DNA of 64,000 nucleotides from Desulfohalovibrio reitneri (GTDB taxonomy: Bacteria; Desulfobacterota; Desulfovibrionia; Desulfovibrionales; Desulfovibrionaceae): contig NZ_JOMJ01000003.1 of assembly GCF_000711295.1 (NCBI RefSeq), forward strand, positions 1,375,501-1,439,500, read 5' to 3'. Shown piece after piece: positions 9,228-61,123 of the stretch. Position 1 is the stretch's first letter. Every line of letters begins with the position of its first letter. The notes under the pieces were generated by a model. The model worked only from the letters and a program-made list of their open reading frames with translations, was not told where the DNA came from and made no database searches. Position numbers and translations under genes: made by a program.

Positions 9228-9305
9228 GAGGCCAGCACCTACGGCATGGACGGGCGTGAAGCAAGAAAAAGCGGAGGCGGGGGAAGCTGGAGGGAAAAGA
9301 GGGAG

Positions 9306-9659
9306 GATTTCGCCCTGCGGGCGACCAGGGCCTGCTCGGCCCTGGACCCGAGGCAAACTAAGTTTGCATATGTACCGCGTGTTGGCGCGAGGTGGTGCGC
9401 GGGAAGGGAGTACTACGGCGAACCCGCGATTGCTTGGCTATTTCACCCGGTAAATCCCAGTCCCGACCGTTTGGCTTCAGATGCGATGAACACGGGATTG
9501 GGCCACGGTCTCCCGGCTCCCGCCTGCTTGTACCCCGCTCCCGAGCGAAGCGAGCGATAAAAGGTTTGGCGGAAGGAGGATGAGGGTGCGGGAGAAGGAG
9601 GAAACCGCTTTTCCCAAAAGGGGTTTCCTCCTTCTCCCGCTGCCCTGAACACACACCCC
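9306..9659 (+). repeat. Interspersed intergenic repeat, copy A (continues past the IS3 element at 10795-10812)
   Basis: A full-length copy of the repeat family described in the findings. It opens with ATTTCGCCCTGCGGGCGACC, then the hairpin CCAGGGCC..GGCCCTGG, then the palindrome GCAAACTAAGTTTGC (9353-9367). Further on it has the GAGCGAAGCGAGCG block and a long hairpin: an 18-bp perfect stem at 9589-9606 with 9622-9639. The copy stops at CACACCCC. Its expected end, CCCCGCCAGCC, appears on the other side of the IS3 element, so the element split it. This copy's conserved end lies upstream of the antiporter start, unlike the other copies, which follow stop codons. Confidence 0.85.
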
Positions 9660-14050: not shown

Positions 14051-14068
14051 ATGGGGAAGAGAAGAAAG

Positions 14069-14235
14069 ATTTCGCCCTTCGGGCGACCAGGGGCTACGCG
14101 CCCCCTGGACCCTGCGGCAAAATAATTTTGCATTTGTATTCGCGTGTTGAGGAAAGGTAGCGAGTATGTCGGGGAGCACTCCGGCGAACTCGTTACGGGG
14201 GGAAATCCGCTCCTTGCTTCGCAGGTTGGCCCTCT
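14069..14235 (+). repeat. Interspersed repeat, copy B
   Basis: Forward copy opening ATTTCGCCCTTCGGGCGACC, then a hairpin with arms around CCAGGGG..CCCCTGG, and the palindrome GCAAAATAATTTTGC. Compared with other copies the palindrome arm has changed on both sides and still pairs. It follows the NYN terminator and faces copy C, so the two conserved ends point outward to two convergent genes. The boundary with copy C is uncertain. Confidence 0.8.
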
Positions 14236-14453
14236 ATTTTGGGTTATTGGAGCCAAACACCGCGCCCATGAACGAGAGAGTCCAACCAACGGGACCCTGG
14301 TTATACCCGCCTCCCACACCACGCCGCAGCATATTCGCGGACTCCTCCCGGAACGTACCCTGACTCCCTCCATCACGCGTCACAAAGTGCAGAAATTATT
14401 TCTGCCGCGGGTCCAGGGCCGCGCAGGCCCTGGTCGCCCGCAGGGCGAAATCT
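14236..14453 (-). repeat. Interspersed repeat, copy C (inverted relative to B)
   Basis: The conserved end is at 14375-14453, read on the minus strand: GGGCGACCAGGGCCTGCGC, GGCCCTGGACCC, and the palindrome GCAGAAATAATTTCTGC. It ends 12 bases after the stop of the PHP gene, which shows no other terminator, so this hairpin cluster may serve that purpose. Confidence 0.8.
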
Positions 14454-14464
14454 TCTTCCCCCCT

Positions 14465-21817: not shown

Positions 21818-21863
21818 TTGACAAGCCCCCCGAAACATGGGGATAGAAAAGAGTGGAGTCCCC

Positions 21864-23351
21864 ATGCGTCCGGAAGAGGAACTGCGCCTGGCCAAGGAAA
21901 TCGTGGACCACAGCCCCGTGGTCCTCTTCCGACGTCTGCCCGCGCCCGAATACACCCTGGTCTACGTCTCGGAAAACGTCCGCCGCTTCGGCTACAAGGC
22001 GTCCGACTTCCTCGAGGGCAAGATCACCTGGAACGACCTGGTCCACCCGGACGACCTGGAGCGGCTCGGCCGCGAGGTTGAGGAACACGCCGCCGCCGAA
22101 CGCACCAGCTACTGCCAGGAATACCGCGTGCGCACCTCCAACGGCGAAGTCCGCCACGTGGAGGACACCACCCGCGCCCTGCGCGACGAAAGCGGCCAGG
22201 TCACCCACTACGAAGGCGTGGTGGTCGACGTCACCGAGCGCAAGCTGGCCGAAGACGCCCTGCGCCGCAGCGAGGAAAAGTTCCGCCGCATCGTGGAGAC
22301 CGCGGCCGAGGGCTTCCTGCTCATGGACCCCCACCTGCGCATCCTCGACGCCAACCAGGCATACTGCCGCATGCTGGGCTTCAGCCGCGAGGAGATTCTG
22401 GGGCTCACCCCCATGGAACTCGCCACCGACGAATACCGCCGCTTTCTCAAATACAACCGCGAGTGGCTCCTCAGCAACGACCAGCGCGTGCTGGAGGGCT
22501 CCCTCCGCGCCAAGGACGGGCGCAAGGTGCCCATCCTGGTCAAGTCCAACACCCTCACCGGAGACAACGGCGAACTCTGGGGCCACGTGGCCTTCGTCTC
22601 CGACCTCACCGAGCAGAAACACTCCCTGGCCCTGGCCGCCGAAGTCCAGCGCTCCCTCCTGCCCACGGAAATGCCCCAACTCGATGGCCTGCAGGTGGCC
22701 GCCCGCGCCCTGCCCTGCCAGGAACTCGGCGGGGACTACTACGACATCCTGGCCGCCTCCGGCCCGGACAACGCCCCCCTGACCGTCTTTCTCGGCGACA
22801 TCTCCGGACACGGCGTGGACTCCGCCCTGCTCATGGCCACCGCCCGCTCTTCCCTGCGTTCCCACCTCATGCGCTCCAAATCCCTGGGCGACGCCCTGCG
22901 CCGGGTCAACCGCGATCTCTTCACCGACTTCGAGGCCACCTCCAGCTTCATGACCATGATCGGACTCTCCGTCACCCCCCAGGGCGAAATGCGCTGGGCC
23001 CGCGCCGGACACGACCCGCCCATCATCTACGACCCCGCCATGGACGCCTTCGCCTCTATCCTCGGCCACGGCCTCCCCCTGGGCGTGGACCAGACCTCCC
23101 GCTACCCGGACAACGAACTCACCCCGCTGCCCCAGGGCTGCATCATCGCCATGGGCACCGACGGCATCTGGGAAGCCGCCTCCCGCGAAGGCGACTACTT
23201 CGGCAAGGAACGCTTCCAGGAAATCGTCCGCGCCCACGCCCACCAAACCGCCCAGGAAATCCTCGACGCCGTCTTCAGCCAGGTCGCCTCCTTCACCGCC
23301 GGACGACCCCAGGACGACGACATCACCCTGGCCGTGGTGAAAATCGGGTAG
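21864..23351 (+). CDS. PAS-PAS-PP2C (SpoIIE/RsbU-type) serine phosphatase
   Basis: A 495-residue cytoplasmic protein: PAS domain (about 15-125), second PAS (about 130-245), and a C-terminal PPM/SpoIIE phosphatase (about 250-495). The phosphatase shows VQRSLLPTEMPQLDG, CQELGGDYYDI, LGDISGHGVDSALLM, MGTDGIWEA and DDDITLAVV, so the metal-binding aspartates are present. Such proteins usually dephosphorylate an anti-sigma-factor antagonist (STAS protein); no partner is nearby. ATG 21864 has GTGGAG at a good distance; ATG 21837 does not. Repeat copy D begins 18 bases after the stop. Confidence 0.92.
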   Translation: MRPEEELRLAKEIVDHSPVVLFRRLPAPEYTLVYVSENVRRFGYKASDFLEGKITWNDLVHPDDLERLGREVEEHAAAERTSYCQEYRVRTSNGEVRHVEDTTRALRDESGQVTHYEGVVVDVTERKLAEDALRRSEEKFRRIVETAAEGFLLMDPHLRILDANQAYCRMLGFSREEILGLTPMELATDEYRRFLKYNREWLLSNDQRVLEGSLRAKDGRKVPILVKSNTLTGDNGELWGHVAFVSDLTEQKHSLALAAEVQRSLLPTEMPQLDGLQVAARALPCQELGGDYYDILAASGPDNAPLTVFLGDISGHGVDSALLMATARSSLRSHLMRSKSLGDALRRVNRDLFTDFEATSSFMTMIGLSVTPQGEMRWARAGHDPPIIYDPAMDAFASILGHGLPLGVDQTSRYPDNELTPLPQGCIIAMGTDGIWEAASREGDYFGKERFQEIVRAHAHQTAQEILDAVFSQVASFTAGRPQDDDITLAVVKIG

Positions 23352-23368
23352 AAGAAGAGAAGGTTAAG

Positions 23369-23702
23369 CATTTCGCCCTGCGGGCGACCAGGGGGCTGCG
23401 CGCCTCCTGGACCCTGCGGCAAAGTAACTTTGCATGTGTATCGCGTGATGAAGCGCGTCAGGGGAGATACCAGGAAGCGCCCCGGCGAATTTGCGTTCGC
23501 GGGATGGGGTCTACCCGGCCCCCACCCTGGCCGGTTGATTCCAGATGCGTTGAACACGAAATTGAAAGACGGCACCCCGGTTCTTACGCCTGTACCACGC
23601 CCCCGAGCGAAGCGAGCGGCAAAGAGTTTTGAGGAAGGATGGAGGGAGTTTGGAGGAGGAAGTATCCTGCCCCAATGTCCTGAACGTCCACCCCGCCAGC
23701 CT
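23369..23702 (+). repeat. Interspersed repeat, copy D (full length)
   Basis: Opens ATTTCGCCCTGCGGGCGACC, then an arm pair around CCAGGGGGC..GCCTCCTGG, and palindrome GCAAAGTAACTTTGC. It includes the GAGCGAAGCGAGCGG block and ends CCTGAACGTCCACCCC-GCCAGCC, showing the uninterrupted form of the end that the IS3 element splits in copy A. The following 70 bases are pyrimidine-rich. Together this accounts for the gap between the phosphatase and pyrophosphorylase genes. Confidence 0.88.
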
Positions 23703-23869
23703 TCCCCCTTTCCCCGCACCCCGTTTTCACCCGTCTCACCGTTTTCTCTCCACTCCCTCCCCTTTATCATTCGCCATGGAAATACGAGTGTGGCATCATG
23801 AAAACAAAGCCCCTCCGCCCGGTTCCGTCACGGGGGGCGGATGCGACCAAACTGTGGGAGGAGCACAGC

Positions 23870-25312: not shown

Positions 25313-25330
25313 GTGTAGGAAAAACAGGGG

Positions 25331-25480
25331 TATTTCGCCCTGCGGGCGACCAGGGGGCTACGCGCACCCTGGCCCTGCGGCAAAGTAACCTTGCATGTGT
25401 GTTCGCGGGGTGGAGCGCGTCAGGACGAGGTCGGGGAGCACCCCGGCGCATGCGTCGCTGTGCGCTGTGTCCTGTGTATC
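25331..25480 (+). repeat. Interspersed repeat, copy E (partial)
   Basis: Has the conserved end ATTTCGCCCTGCGGGCGACC, a degraded hairpin CCAGGGGG..CCCTGG, and palindrome GCAAAGTAACCTTGC with one mismatch. Similarity fades after the GGAGCACCCCGGCG stretch, so the distal half is missing. Confidence 0.78.
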
Positions 25481-36510: not shown

Positions 36511-36880
36511 GAGGATGGCTGGCGAGGGTTGACGTTCAGGGCAGCGGGAGAGGGAGGAAAAACCCTTTAAAAAGGGTTCTTTCCTCCCTCTCCCGCACCC
36601 TCACCCTCCTTTTCCTAAACTTTTTGCCGCTCGCTTCGCTCGGGGGCGGGGGGCGGGCAGTTGGGAGCCGGTGGATTTCTGCTCAATCTCGCGTCCCACG
36701 CATCTGGATGCCAAACGACCGGGACTGGATTTTGTCGAGTGGACGAGCACTCTTGGCGTACCTTCGCGGGCTACTCCCGTTCCACTCCCTGACGCGCACC
36801 AACACGCGTCACACATGCAAAGTTACTTTGCCGCAGGGTCCAGGGGGCGCGCAGCCCCCTGGTCGCCCGAAGGGCGAAAT
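36511..36880 (-). repeat. Interspersed repeat, copy F (full length, 370 bp)
   Basis: Minus-orientation copy. From its distal end: GGCTGGCGAGGGTTGACG, then a long hairpin (16-bp outer stem 36545-36560 with 36580-36595 plus an 8-bp inner stem), the CGCTCGCTTCGCTCG block, and at the conserved end palindrome GCAAAGTTACTTTGC, stem CCAGGGGGC..GCCCCCTGG and GGGCGAAAT. A second copy (G) follows directly in the same orientation. Confidence 0.88.
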
Positions 36881-36904
36881 CTTCCTTTCTTGATTGCAGG
36901 CAGC

Positions 36905-37161
36905 TTGCCGCTCGCTTCGCTCGGGGGCGGGGGGCGGGCAGGTGGGAGCTGGGGAATTTCTGCTCAATCTCGCGTTCAACGCATCGCGAGCCAAACGGCC
37001 GCGGCTGTATTCTACCGGCTGGACACGCTCCACAATCGCAGGTTCGCCGGAGTTCTCACTTGTATCTTTCTGATGCTCGCCAACACGCGATACACATGCA
37101 AAGTCACTTTGCCGCAGGGTCCAGGGGGCGCGCAGCCCCTGGTCGCCCGCCAGGGCGAAAT
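36905..37161 (-). repeat. Interspersed repeat, copy G (tandem to F)
   Basis: Same orientation as F but lacking the distal hairpin; it starts at GCCGCTCGCTTCGCTCG. Conserved end: GCAAAGTCACTTTGC, CAGGGGGCGCGCAGCCCCTG and GGGCGAAAT. It stops 33 bases after the wrbA stop codon, with no separate terminator there. Confidence 0.85.
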
Positions 37162-37193
37162 CATCCCTTTCTTTCCTTCTCTCCAACGATTGG

Positions 37194-39330: not shown

Positions 39331-39580
39331 GAAGGTGGCTGGCGGGGGTGCGCGTTCCGGACAACGGGAGACAGCAGCCCAATTCAGCATTCAGCGCATC
39401 TGAAACCAGACGACCAGGGCAGAATTTTACCGGCTGAAATAGCCCAACAATCGCCAATTCGCCGAAGCGCTCCCTGGTATCCGCCACTGACGCGCGCCAA
39501 CCCGCGAAAACACATGCAAAGGTAGTTTGCCGCAGGGTCCAGGGGGCGCGCAGCCCCTGGTCGGCCGCCAGGGCGAAAAT
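39331..39580 (-). repeat. Interspersed repeat, copy H
   Basis: Minus orientation, 250 bp. Distal end GGCTGGCGGGGGTGCG; conserved end GCAAAGGTAGTTTGC (imperfect), CAGGGGGCGCGCAGCCCCTG and GGGCGAAAAT. The conserved end lies 16 bases after the stop of the Nif11-like gene, which has no other terminator. Confidence 0.85.
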
Positions 39581-39595
39581 CTTCCCCGCTTCCTC

Positions 39596-56212: not shown

Positions 56213-56478
56213 GGCCAGGAAAATATGGATTGGGAAGGAAAAAGGGAAGAGGAAGCGAGGGGAGCAAGGGGGGTGGATGGTGGTTGGCCGGGGTGCAAGT
56301 TCAGGGCACGCGGCGGGCGCCGGGAGACGGCAGCCCAATTCAGCGTTCAGCGCATTTGCGGCCAAACGGCCGGGGCGTGGTTGTACCGGGTAGGCGCGCT
56401 CCACGGTCGCCAGTGCGCCGGGATGTTCCTTGACCGCGATACCATCTCGCACCAACACGCGTTACACATGCAAACTTA

Positions 56479-57398
56479 GAACTTATCCGTAAATAATTCC
56501 TGTCTTTCTCAGAGCGATGATGATGGCGGCCGCCAAATGGGTTAATGCCAAATGAGCTGAATGCAGCTTTTCAAACCTGACCAGAAGCTTCCTGAAGCGA
56601 TTAAGCCAAGACAGGCTCACTTCTACAACCCACCTTCGTGGCTTGAATTCAGGGTTGCGTTCCTTCTCTGCGATCTCTTCACCACGCGGCCGAACATGGG
56701 GGAGATACCCTGCGTTCTCAATTACTTGCCGTGCGTTGTCGCCGGTGTAGCCTGCATCGGCACAGAGGTTATCTACCACCTCTGGCTCGAAAGGCCCGCC
56801 CACGACTTTGCCTTTCAACACATTCTCCAACTGGGATACATCATGTCGATTTGCGCCTGTTACAACGATCGACAACGGGACGCCACGCTCGTCCACAAGA
56901 ATGTGGCGTTTGGAACCTTTTTTTCCCCGGTCTGTCGGATTTCTGCCACCCGCCTCACAGGCCAAAGGTGCTTTAAGCGCACCCCCGTCAACGGCTTGCC
57001 ATTCCCAAGCAATCCCCATCATTTCATCATATTCAGCGAGACCTGCTTGCCAAAGCGACAGAAAAAAGCCTTGCTTTTCCCACTTTCTGAAATAGGCATG
57101 GATAGAGCTTGGGCTCCCAAACACTTCTTTGGGTAAGGCCTTCCATTGAATCCCAGTGCGCAAAACATATACGATGGCCTCAAAAACTCTCCGAGGCGGG
57201 AGAGGCTTTCCACCGCCCCCTGGTTTTCGCTTGTATTTCCTCGTGGTATCATGTTGAGGTACAGGAATGTGCGGCTCGACAATAGCCCAGAATTCATCAG
57301 AAACTTCCCAAGATTGAACTCGCTTTCCCATGCGTCCTCCTCTTTTGAGGAGAATGCTCGAACTGTTCAGTTTAGTCTATTTATTTACGGATAAGTTC
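56479..57398 (-). mobile_element. IS5-family insertion sequence, 920 bp
   Basis: Perfect 18-bp terminal inverted repeats (GAACTTATCCGTAAATAA at 56479-56496 and its complement at 57381-57398) flank one transposase gene. The left flank reads CTTAG and the right CTTTG if the outermost G/C is excluded, an imperfect match, so the target duplication cannot be stated. It is inserted in the palindrome of repeat copy I. A+T content is higher than in neighbouring genes, in line with transfer from elsewhere. Confidence 0.93.
56483..57331 (-). CDS. IS5-family DDE transposase
   Basis: A 282-residue transposase in one unbroken frame. N-terminal part WEVSDEFWAIVEPHI and LPPRRVFEAIVYVLRTGIQWKALPKEVFG is typical of IS5-type elements. 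Catalytic residues: Asp in WQAVDGGALKAP, Asp in LCADAGYTGDNA, and Glu in RRWVVEVSLSWLNRFRKL. The TAA stop falls inside the left inverted repeat. The frame is complete, so the element may be able to move. Confidence 0.95.
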   Translation of the reverse strand: MGKRVQSWEVSDEFWAIVEPHIPVPQHDTTRKYKRKPGGGGKPLPPRRVFEAIVYVLRTGIQWKALPKEVFGSPSSIHAYFRKWEKQGFFLSLWQAGLAEYDEMMGIAWEWQAVDGGALKAPLACEAGGRNPTDRGKKGSKRHILVDERGVPLSIVVTGANRHDVSQLENVLKGKVVGGPFEPEVVDNLCADAGYTGDNARQVIENAGYLPHVRPRGEEIAEKERNPEFKPRRWVVEVSLSWLNRFRKLLVRFEKLHSAHLALTHLAAAIIIALRKTGIIYG

Positions 57399-57479
57399 TT
57401 TGGTTTGCTGCGGACGACCAGGGCCGCGCAGGCCCTGGTCGCCCGCAGGACGAAATCTTCATCTGCATCTTGCCACACA

Positions 57480-60834: not shown

Positions 60835-61093
60835 AATGCTGGTTGGCCGGCTCGGGTGCGGGGGGTGCGGGCATGTGGTGGCCCGAGGGAACGCAGCCCA
60901 ATTCCGCGTTGAACGCACCTGAAGCCAAACGGTCAGGCGGGCGGGATTGTACCAGCCTAGAATTCCCGCAATCGCGCGTTCGCCGGGGTGCTTCCTTGCC
61001 GCGCGCCACCACTCGCCAACACGCGAACACACATGCAAAGTTAGTTTGCCGAGGGTCCAGGGCCGCGCAGGCCCTGGTCGCCCGCAGGGCGAA
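60835..61093 (-). repeat. Interspersed repeat, copy J
   Basis: Minus orientation. Distal end GCTGGTTGGCCGGCTCGGG; conserved end GCAAAGTTAGTTTGC, CAGGGCCGCGCAGGCCCTG, GGGCGAAA. It ends 31 bases after the shikimate kinase stop, with no other terminator. The gap between the QueG-like and shikimate kinase genes (325 bases) is filled by this copy. Confidence 0.87.
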
Positions 61094-61123
61094 ACCTTCC
61101 CTCTCTCCCTTCTTTCCCTCTTC

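Follow-up and report, generated by a model that had tools for sequence, protein, structure and literature searches.

A repeat of hairpins at gene ends

Positions 23369-23440 (forward strand) of the window, by which we mean the whole 64,000-nucleotide stretch of Desulfohalovibrio reitneri DNA analyzed here, form the 5' part of an intergenic repeat. The copy under study, the other copies in the window, and the insertion sequences (ISs) associated with the repeat are listed in Table 1.

Table 1. Features of the repeat and of the ISs that enter it (window positions, unless another stretch is named)
Feature	Position	Strand	Remarks
Upstream gene of studied copy, PAS/SpoIIE-type	21837-23351		Pfam; stop 15 nt before core
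Core of studied copy (H1-H4 region)	23366-23473	+	R1 match, 114.1 bits
H1 hairpin TCGCCC-TGC-GGGCGA	23373-23387	+	from sequence
H2 hairpin CCAGGGGGC-TGCGC-GCCTCCTGG	23388-23410	+	from sequence and family counts; one G.T pair
H4 outer helix CCTGCG/CGCGTG enclosing H3	23413-23447	+	weak here; consensus CCTGCG/CGCGGG
H3 hairpin GCAAAGT-A-ACTTTGC	23419-23433	+	from sequence; IS target in other copies
Conserved tail motif CCGAGCGAAGCGAGCGG	23603-23619	+	H5 after tail degenerate in this copy
Copy with GCAAACT/AGTTTGC	9303-9407	+	5' neighbor gene on opposite strand
H5 long hairpin of the 9303 copy	9588-9640	+	
Copy with GCAAAAT/ATTTTGC	14065-14172	+	stop 85 nt upstream
Copy with GCAGAAAT/ATTTCTGC	14348-14455	-	stop 10 nt upstream
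Repeat copy	25328-25435	+	stop 76 nt upstream
H5 long hairpin of the 36777-36884 copy	36544-36596	-	
Tandem pair, second copy	36777-36884	-	
Tandem pair, first copy	37058-37165	-	stop 29 nt upstream
Repeat copy	39475-39583	-	stop 13 nt upstream
IS transposase (IS4/5-type) inserted in H3	56483-57331	-	remainder of cut copy below 56480
Left part of copy, IS-cut in H3	57376-57460	-	H2 arms lengthened outwards, mirroring left-hand sequence
Repeat copy	60994-61099	-	stop 25 nt upstream
Places of the IS4/5-type element	window 56470-57410; L163; L174; L170; L182		
Sites of the second IS	L122, L123, L124, L132, L152, L177; L141		in H5; L141 in middle part

Using a covariance model (R1) built from an alignment of 45 copies (A1), we obtained 120 matches in the D. 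reitneri genome (150 candidates were scored). On the window and 59 fetched stretches R1 gave 129 matches, 104 of them at 50 bits or more. Ten of the 129 lie in the window, nine at 86 bits or above and one, cut by an IS, at 41.5 bits; besides these ten there is one weak match on the reverse strand. The full element is up to ~430 nt long. Its conserved core spans some 95-110 nt (outside the core the full-length MAFFT alignment was too gappy) and contains the short hairpins H1 to H3 together with a putative outer helix, H4; next come a middle part of lower conservation and, at the 3' end, the long hairpin H5. The tail motif CCGAGCGAAGCGAGC is found near +240 and H5 near +285, this long hairpin being present in 25 of the 44 copies with the motif. 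Tandem copies exist (L146, for example, has three with a period of 246 nt). In four copies (L130, L133, L156:2001 and L169:6271) H1 and H2 are replaced by another 5' half (AAATCGCCCTCCGGGGCGATTT or similar); these chimeric copies are two repeat types joined.

Only one of the 104 copies overlaps a called gene. (Genes were called with our own codon-usage caller, independently of any annotation.) A same-strand gene lies upstream of 73 of the 104 (p=5e-5), with the stop codon within 100 nt in 57 cases and within 30 nt in 31; for the other 31 copies the 5' neighbor is on the opposite strand (within 100 nt in 7). The repeat is a REP-like family of multi-hairpin intergenic elements, situated mostly just 3' of stop codons in the orientation of the gene. 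REP sequences of enterobacteria and Pseudomonas are likewise placed at gene 3' ends.

No Rfam family scored above its gathering threshold in the window, and nothing except a tRNA did so in the 15 loci scanned. An e-value-based Rfam scan gave sub-threshold matches only, mostly to miRNA-type hairpins, which we took as chance, and a tRNA scan of the window found none. The core matched none of 38 relatives by blastn, and its exact species-specific pattern had no match in a contig database from which records close to this genome are possibly absent.

Of 199 genomes from the family (presumably the Desulfovibrionaceae), 68 contain a unit of the same H1/H2 architecture, TGCCTCCGGCGGCC[H2]GGAxxCC, with up to 152 per genome and none for the reversed control. 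At the level of the class it was found in 64 of 297 genomes; those outside the family are four genomes, from one other family, with a single match each. The named carriers are mainly Desulfovibrio (including Desulfovibrio sp. Ct408_bin78), Solidesulfovibrio, Fundidesulfovibrio, and Desulfocurvus. The name given to the family follows from the unit coordinates in its genome G202, which coincide with those in L259, a stretch of Desulfovibrio sp. Ct408_bin78. In D. reitneri itself the exact unit has no match and a diverged form is present, two copies (L128:2001 and L176:2001) containing a TGCCTCCGGCGGC piece. Because the architecture is shared, R1 gives matches of 20-35 bits in the relatives, and these two copies carry TGCCTCCGGCGGC, the units of the relatives probably belong to the same element lineage as the D. 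reitneri repeat. Consistent with the location at gene 3' ends seen here, 104 of 137 units in relatives follow a same-strand gene, 23 have an opposite-strand neighbor, 7 have no neighbor, and 3 lie in a gene, a sample weighted to two genomes; counting units with a called neighbor, the proportion is 104 of 127 (p=2e-13).

Joint changes in the hairpin arms

Paired bases that change jointly are generally considered the best indication that an RNA fold is functional. The first-pass annotation of this DNA had reported that the palindrome arms of the repeat differ together between copies, and each arm pair that it named is indeed present in copies of the window (GCAAAGT/ACTTTGC, GCAAACT/AGTTTGC, GCAAAAT/ATTTTGC, and GCAGAAAT/ATTTCTGC). 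The switch that it described in the second stem also recurs, H2 being CCAGGGGGC/GCCCCCTGG or CCAGGGCC/GGCCCTGG among copies. The paired changes are real, but they become more varied and less tidy once more copies are added.

H3 could be parsed in 98 of 103 non-identical copies; the parse required four of the five outer pairs, and its counts therefore lean to paired arms. H3 is unchanged in 36 of the 98. Another 39 differ solely by broken pairs, for the most part a C.C at pair six, and 22 have one to four pairs in which both bases are changed, seven of the 22 having a broken pair as well; with one further copy that has longer arms (17 nt), a change in both arms is seen in 23 of the 98. The left arms include the step series AAAGT, AAAAT, AAGAT, AGGAT, GGGAT; the right arms change to match, save for a single broken inner pair in the GGGAT form. 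Among the rows of A1, the sixth H3 pair is G-C in 25, A-U in 3, C-G in 2, and unpaired in 15, and for the H2 pair 32-40 there are 37 rows with G-C and 8 with C-G. H5 is the hairpin that covaries best. Both sides are changed in 16 of its 28 pairs (at most 7 in slid controls). The cells so changed number 74; shuffling gave 26 and sliding no more than 19. Percentages for H5 are biased upwards, however, because its 24 rows were picked for a good hairpin.

To these counts we added an R-scape-like test of our own, in which a G statistic with average-product correction is compared with a null obtained by redistributing parsimony changes on a FastTree tree. For the core, the four chimeric copies were left out and identical cores were merged (99 of 104). 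In the test of every pair of core columns, H2 pair 29-37 passed with E=0.000, and so did a non-pair that adjoins it, 37-41 (E=0.045). When only the 28 proposed core pairs were counted, the H3 pairs 58-62 and 56-64 passed as well (E about 0.004 and 0.026). In H5, 4 of 23 pairs had E<0.05; among the 1153 other pairs the corresponding threshold was exceeded by 2. Thus the outcome that the first-pass annotation had named as fatal to its claim, a loss of significant covariation once many copies are aligned, did not occur: three of the 28 pairs in the core passed, and in H5 four of the 23. Note that two classes, which MAFFT had aligned with a shift, largely governed the structure-blind all-pairs test of the core, and we therefore relied on string counts too. 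Structure-blind folding of 45 copies with RNAalifold recovered H1, part of H2, and H3, with a covariation term of only -0.16; few copies alone are therefore unconvincing.

Joint changes were also evident in the relatives. Their H2 comprises 59 distinct strings from 137 occurrences in the fetched loci, and in its three arm pairs 175 of 177 cells are Watson-Crick. (The search pattern forces purine or pyrimidine but not which, and the count is uncorrected for the tree.) A few further mismatched H2 arms occur among the unit matches listed.

In most copies with a short H2, a loop CTCGG goes together with ACCCGAG downstream of H2, and a loop CGCGG with ACCCGCG; the loop might form an alternative helix with these bases. 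The column pair 34-51 is G-C in 75 rows and T-A in 15 (E=2.5 over all pairs). Long-range pairing of the H2 tail is seen in 7 of the 137 stretches from relatives. In the relatives (L186-L295) the two letters after the GGA of H2 follow the arm without pairing to it: AT comes after a 3' arm TTT, AC after CTT, CC after CCT or CCC, and CT after TCT, across all 59 distinct strings, with a few exceptions among the matches listed (e.g. G188 and G195).

Origin of the paired changes

Selection on an RNA fold, on either strand, should favor one of the two mismatches G.U and A.C, which makes their numbers informative. They were 6 and 5 in H1, 4 and 13 in H2, and 3 and 7 in H3, or 13 versus 25 for H1 to H3, a count that omits the copies that could not be parsed, mostly those with the short H1 form. 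In H5 there were 10 G.U and 5 A.C without L123 and L139, which MAFFT had mis-slid (8 G.U and 8 A.C cells), and 18 and 13 with both. All hairpins taken together give 23 G.U against 30 A.C (p=0.41); G.U is not in excess. Note that the lean to A.C in H2 could hint at the other strand.

Several copies carry mirrored sequence beyond the paired arms. In L142:4721 the H2 arms are 12 bp longer, such that the left neighbor of the hairpin has become the reverse complement of the right neighbor; in 79 of the 82 parsed copies (of 114) the flank starts with a mismatch and there is no such extension. Mirroring in the opposite direction, in which the right neighbor of H2 copies the left, is seen in window:57376 and L163:2001, both cut by an IS and possibly of common origin. 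The H5 hairpins of L133 (2371-2432) and L156 (8019-8076) are lengthened by a mirrored right flank, and the H2 loop is inverted in L124:4351 and L145:2001. Mirrored stems and inversions of whole loops are the footprints of template switching according to Monttinen and Loytynoja (PMC8794818); both a mirrored flank and an inverted loop are found among the copies.

The first-pass annotation had read the paired changes as implying either selection on the fold or copying by a mechanism that keeps the arms symmetrical. Because there is no preference for G.U and because mirror extensions and inverted loops are present, the second of these is favored over the first; covariation here need not entail selection. 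We are inclined, by a modest degree, to the view that the arms covary mainly through template-switch copying, one arm being mirrored onto the other. DNA that is single-stranded at replication would fold back one arm, which would then template the other (template switching, or quasi-palindrome correction); this could mirror point changes, changes in run length, and even flanks, and could occasionally turn a loop round. Spread from site to site would presumably need some mobilizing or gene-conversion process, and the hairpins also serve as IS targets. Against template switching stand the 39 of 98 H3 copies with broken pairs only; since many H3 copies keep unpaired bases, correction would be far from complete. 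Moreover, clear mirror extensions are few (the 12-bp case, the two IS-cut copies, and the two H5 cases), and the stepwise intermediates of H3 fit slow compensation too. A use of the hairpins at mRNA 3' ends is possible, but the pairing can be explained without it. The placement after genes suggests some function beyond what template switching explains.

We considered whether the changes might instead be compensatory, with copies transcribed as 3' UTRs whose hairpins shield mRNA 3' ends or aid termination. Such selection at the RNA level would account for the frequency with which copies follow a gene on their own strand (73 of 104, the stop being no more than 30 nt away in 31 of them), for the same tendency in relatives (104 of 127), and for the nearly invariable Watson-Crick pairing that H2 keeps in different genera (175 Watson-Crick cells out of 177, from 59 distinct strings). 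Moreover, the sense strand of the studied copy folds better relative to shuffles (z -2.59) than does the other strand (z -1.07). However, G.U is no commoner than A.C (23 versus 30), 31 of the 104 copies have their 5' neighbor on the opposite strand, and Rfam matches were lacking in the window and, apart from a tRNA, in the 15 scanned loci. In the one copy scanned, no terminator-like site (hairpin plus T run) was found at 23330-23860, and the minimum free energy fold of the studied copy differs from the drawn fold of four hairpins. We therefore regard RNA-level selection as the cause of the pairing as rather unlikely, though the strongest of the alternatives.

Much less probable is transposition of single-stranded DNA, in which REP/REPIN units would be moved, and kept symmetrical, by a Y1 (RAYT/IS200-like) transposase recognizing the strand in its folded state. 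The REP-like copy number, the location at gene 3' ends, and the tandem copies fit this scheme, as do the inverted order of units in relatives (35 distinct stretches with a closing CCGCCGGAGGCA) and the compensatory changes in REPIN spacers reported in PMC3116915. But Y1_Tnp (PF01797) was not found in the D. reitneri genome (96.9% complete, 5 contigs), Y1 is present in 9 of the 18 genomes with at least 20 units against 74 of 199 overall (p=0.31), and the mismatches have no overall strand bias. We accordingly rejected a link to RAYT, units and Y1 not being associated in the family. Slightly more improbable still is the idea that real covariation is absent and that a few subfamilies with different arms, amplified by recent copying, mimic paired changes. 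Much of the core signal does come from two large classes, and over all core pairs only 29-37 passed cleanly, the non-pair 37-41 (E=0.045) passing too; yet the classes and outer pairs of H5 differ, there are several distinct H3 series, and other genera show the same joint changes (in counts made without tree correction).

If template switching does underlie the pairing, the sort of covariation that is accepted as proving a functional RNA can come about where the RNA has no function, a caution against naming new RNAs from repeats on covariation alone. With somewhat less assurance than for the mechanism itself, one may see in the family a natural record of template switching, whose hairpins covary as DNA copying mirrors them. 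The rate and direction of mirroring could then be read from ~100 copies and from hundreds of units in related genera, and the mirrored flanks, turned loops, and lack of G.U preference would offer a place to separate mutation from selection.

Known systems, insertion sequences, and distribution along the genome

The repeat resembles the REP sequences and BIMEs of enterobacteria and Pseudomonas in its many intergenic palindromic copies, its genome-specific sequence, and its use as an IS target, as these are set out in PMC1525189. Unlike REP, for which the same paper gives a unit length of 21-65 bases, the element is longer and has four or five hairpins; single hairpins fit that range, whereas the core is about 95-110 nt. 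Inverted pairs of units in relatives recall the REPIN/RAYT system, whose spacers have compensatory changes according to PMC3116915, but no Y1 transposase was found in the D. reitneri genome and the family shows no Y1 association. The mirrored stems, multi-base joint changes, and inverted loops are like the template-switch mutations of RNA hairpins in PMC8794818; the cases in that paper were inferred in RNA genes over deep time, whereas here there are ~100 sister copies that share a single genome and fall outside the families of Rfam. The word Desulfovibrio does not occur in the four repeat papers that were searched for it, PMC1525189 and PMC3116915 among them. In our searches of open-licence papers we found no published account of this repeat, which is widespread at gene ends in a family of sulfate reducers.

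The IS4/5-type element (Pfam DUF4096, DDE_Tnp_1) occurs in five places and in four of them cuts H3 at its center. The fifth copy adjoins GTGTTCCCCGCACACGCGGGGATGAACCG, a sequence that resembles a CRISPR repeat. A second IS, with left end CTGCCCCCAGTTTGAAACAGCCTTGAT, has 17 long matches genome-wide. Of 14 left ends seen, 7 mark an insertion into H5 or another part of the element; the stretches had been chosen around copies and controls, which biases this sample. For ISPsy8, insertion into a REP hairpin at its axis of symmetry is known, and ISNm1106 is listed as a case from the IS5 family (PMC1525189); unlike these, the insertions at four of five places here concern a new host and a new repeat.

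Along contig C3 the copies are unevenly distributed. Only 2 of 93 lie below 1.0 Mb and 87 lie between 1.2 and 2.4 Mb, with the copies avoiding 0-1.14 Mb; 200 kb sampled from the copy-poor region gave no match above 20 bits. A DnaA-type gene is located at C3:476883, and GC skew was too weak to decide on a replication-strand explanation of the uneven placement. Near the edge where copies start, the stretch L355 (C3:1120000-1130000) has a GC content of 0.436, compared with about 0.65 elsewhere.
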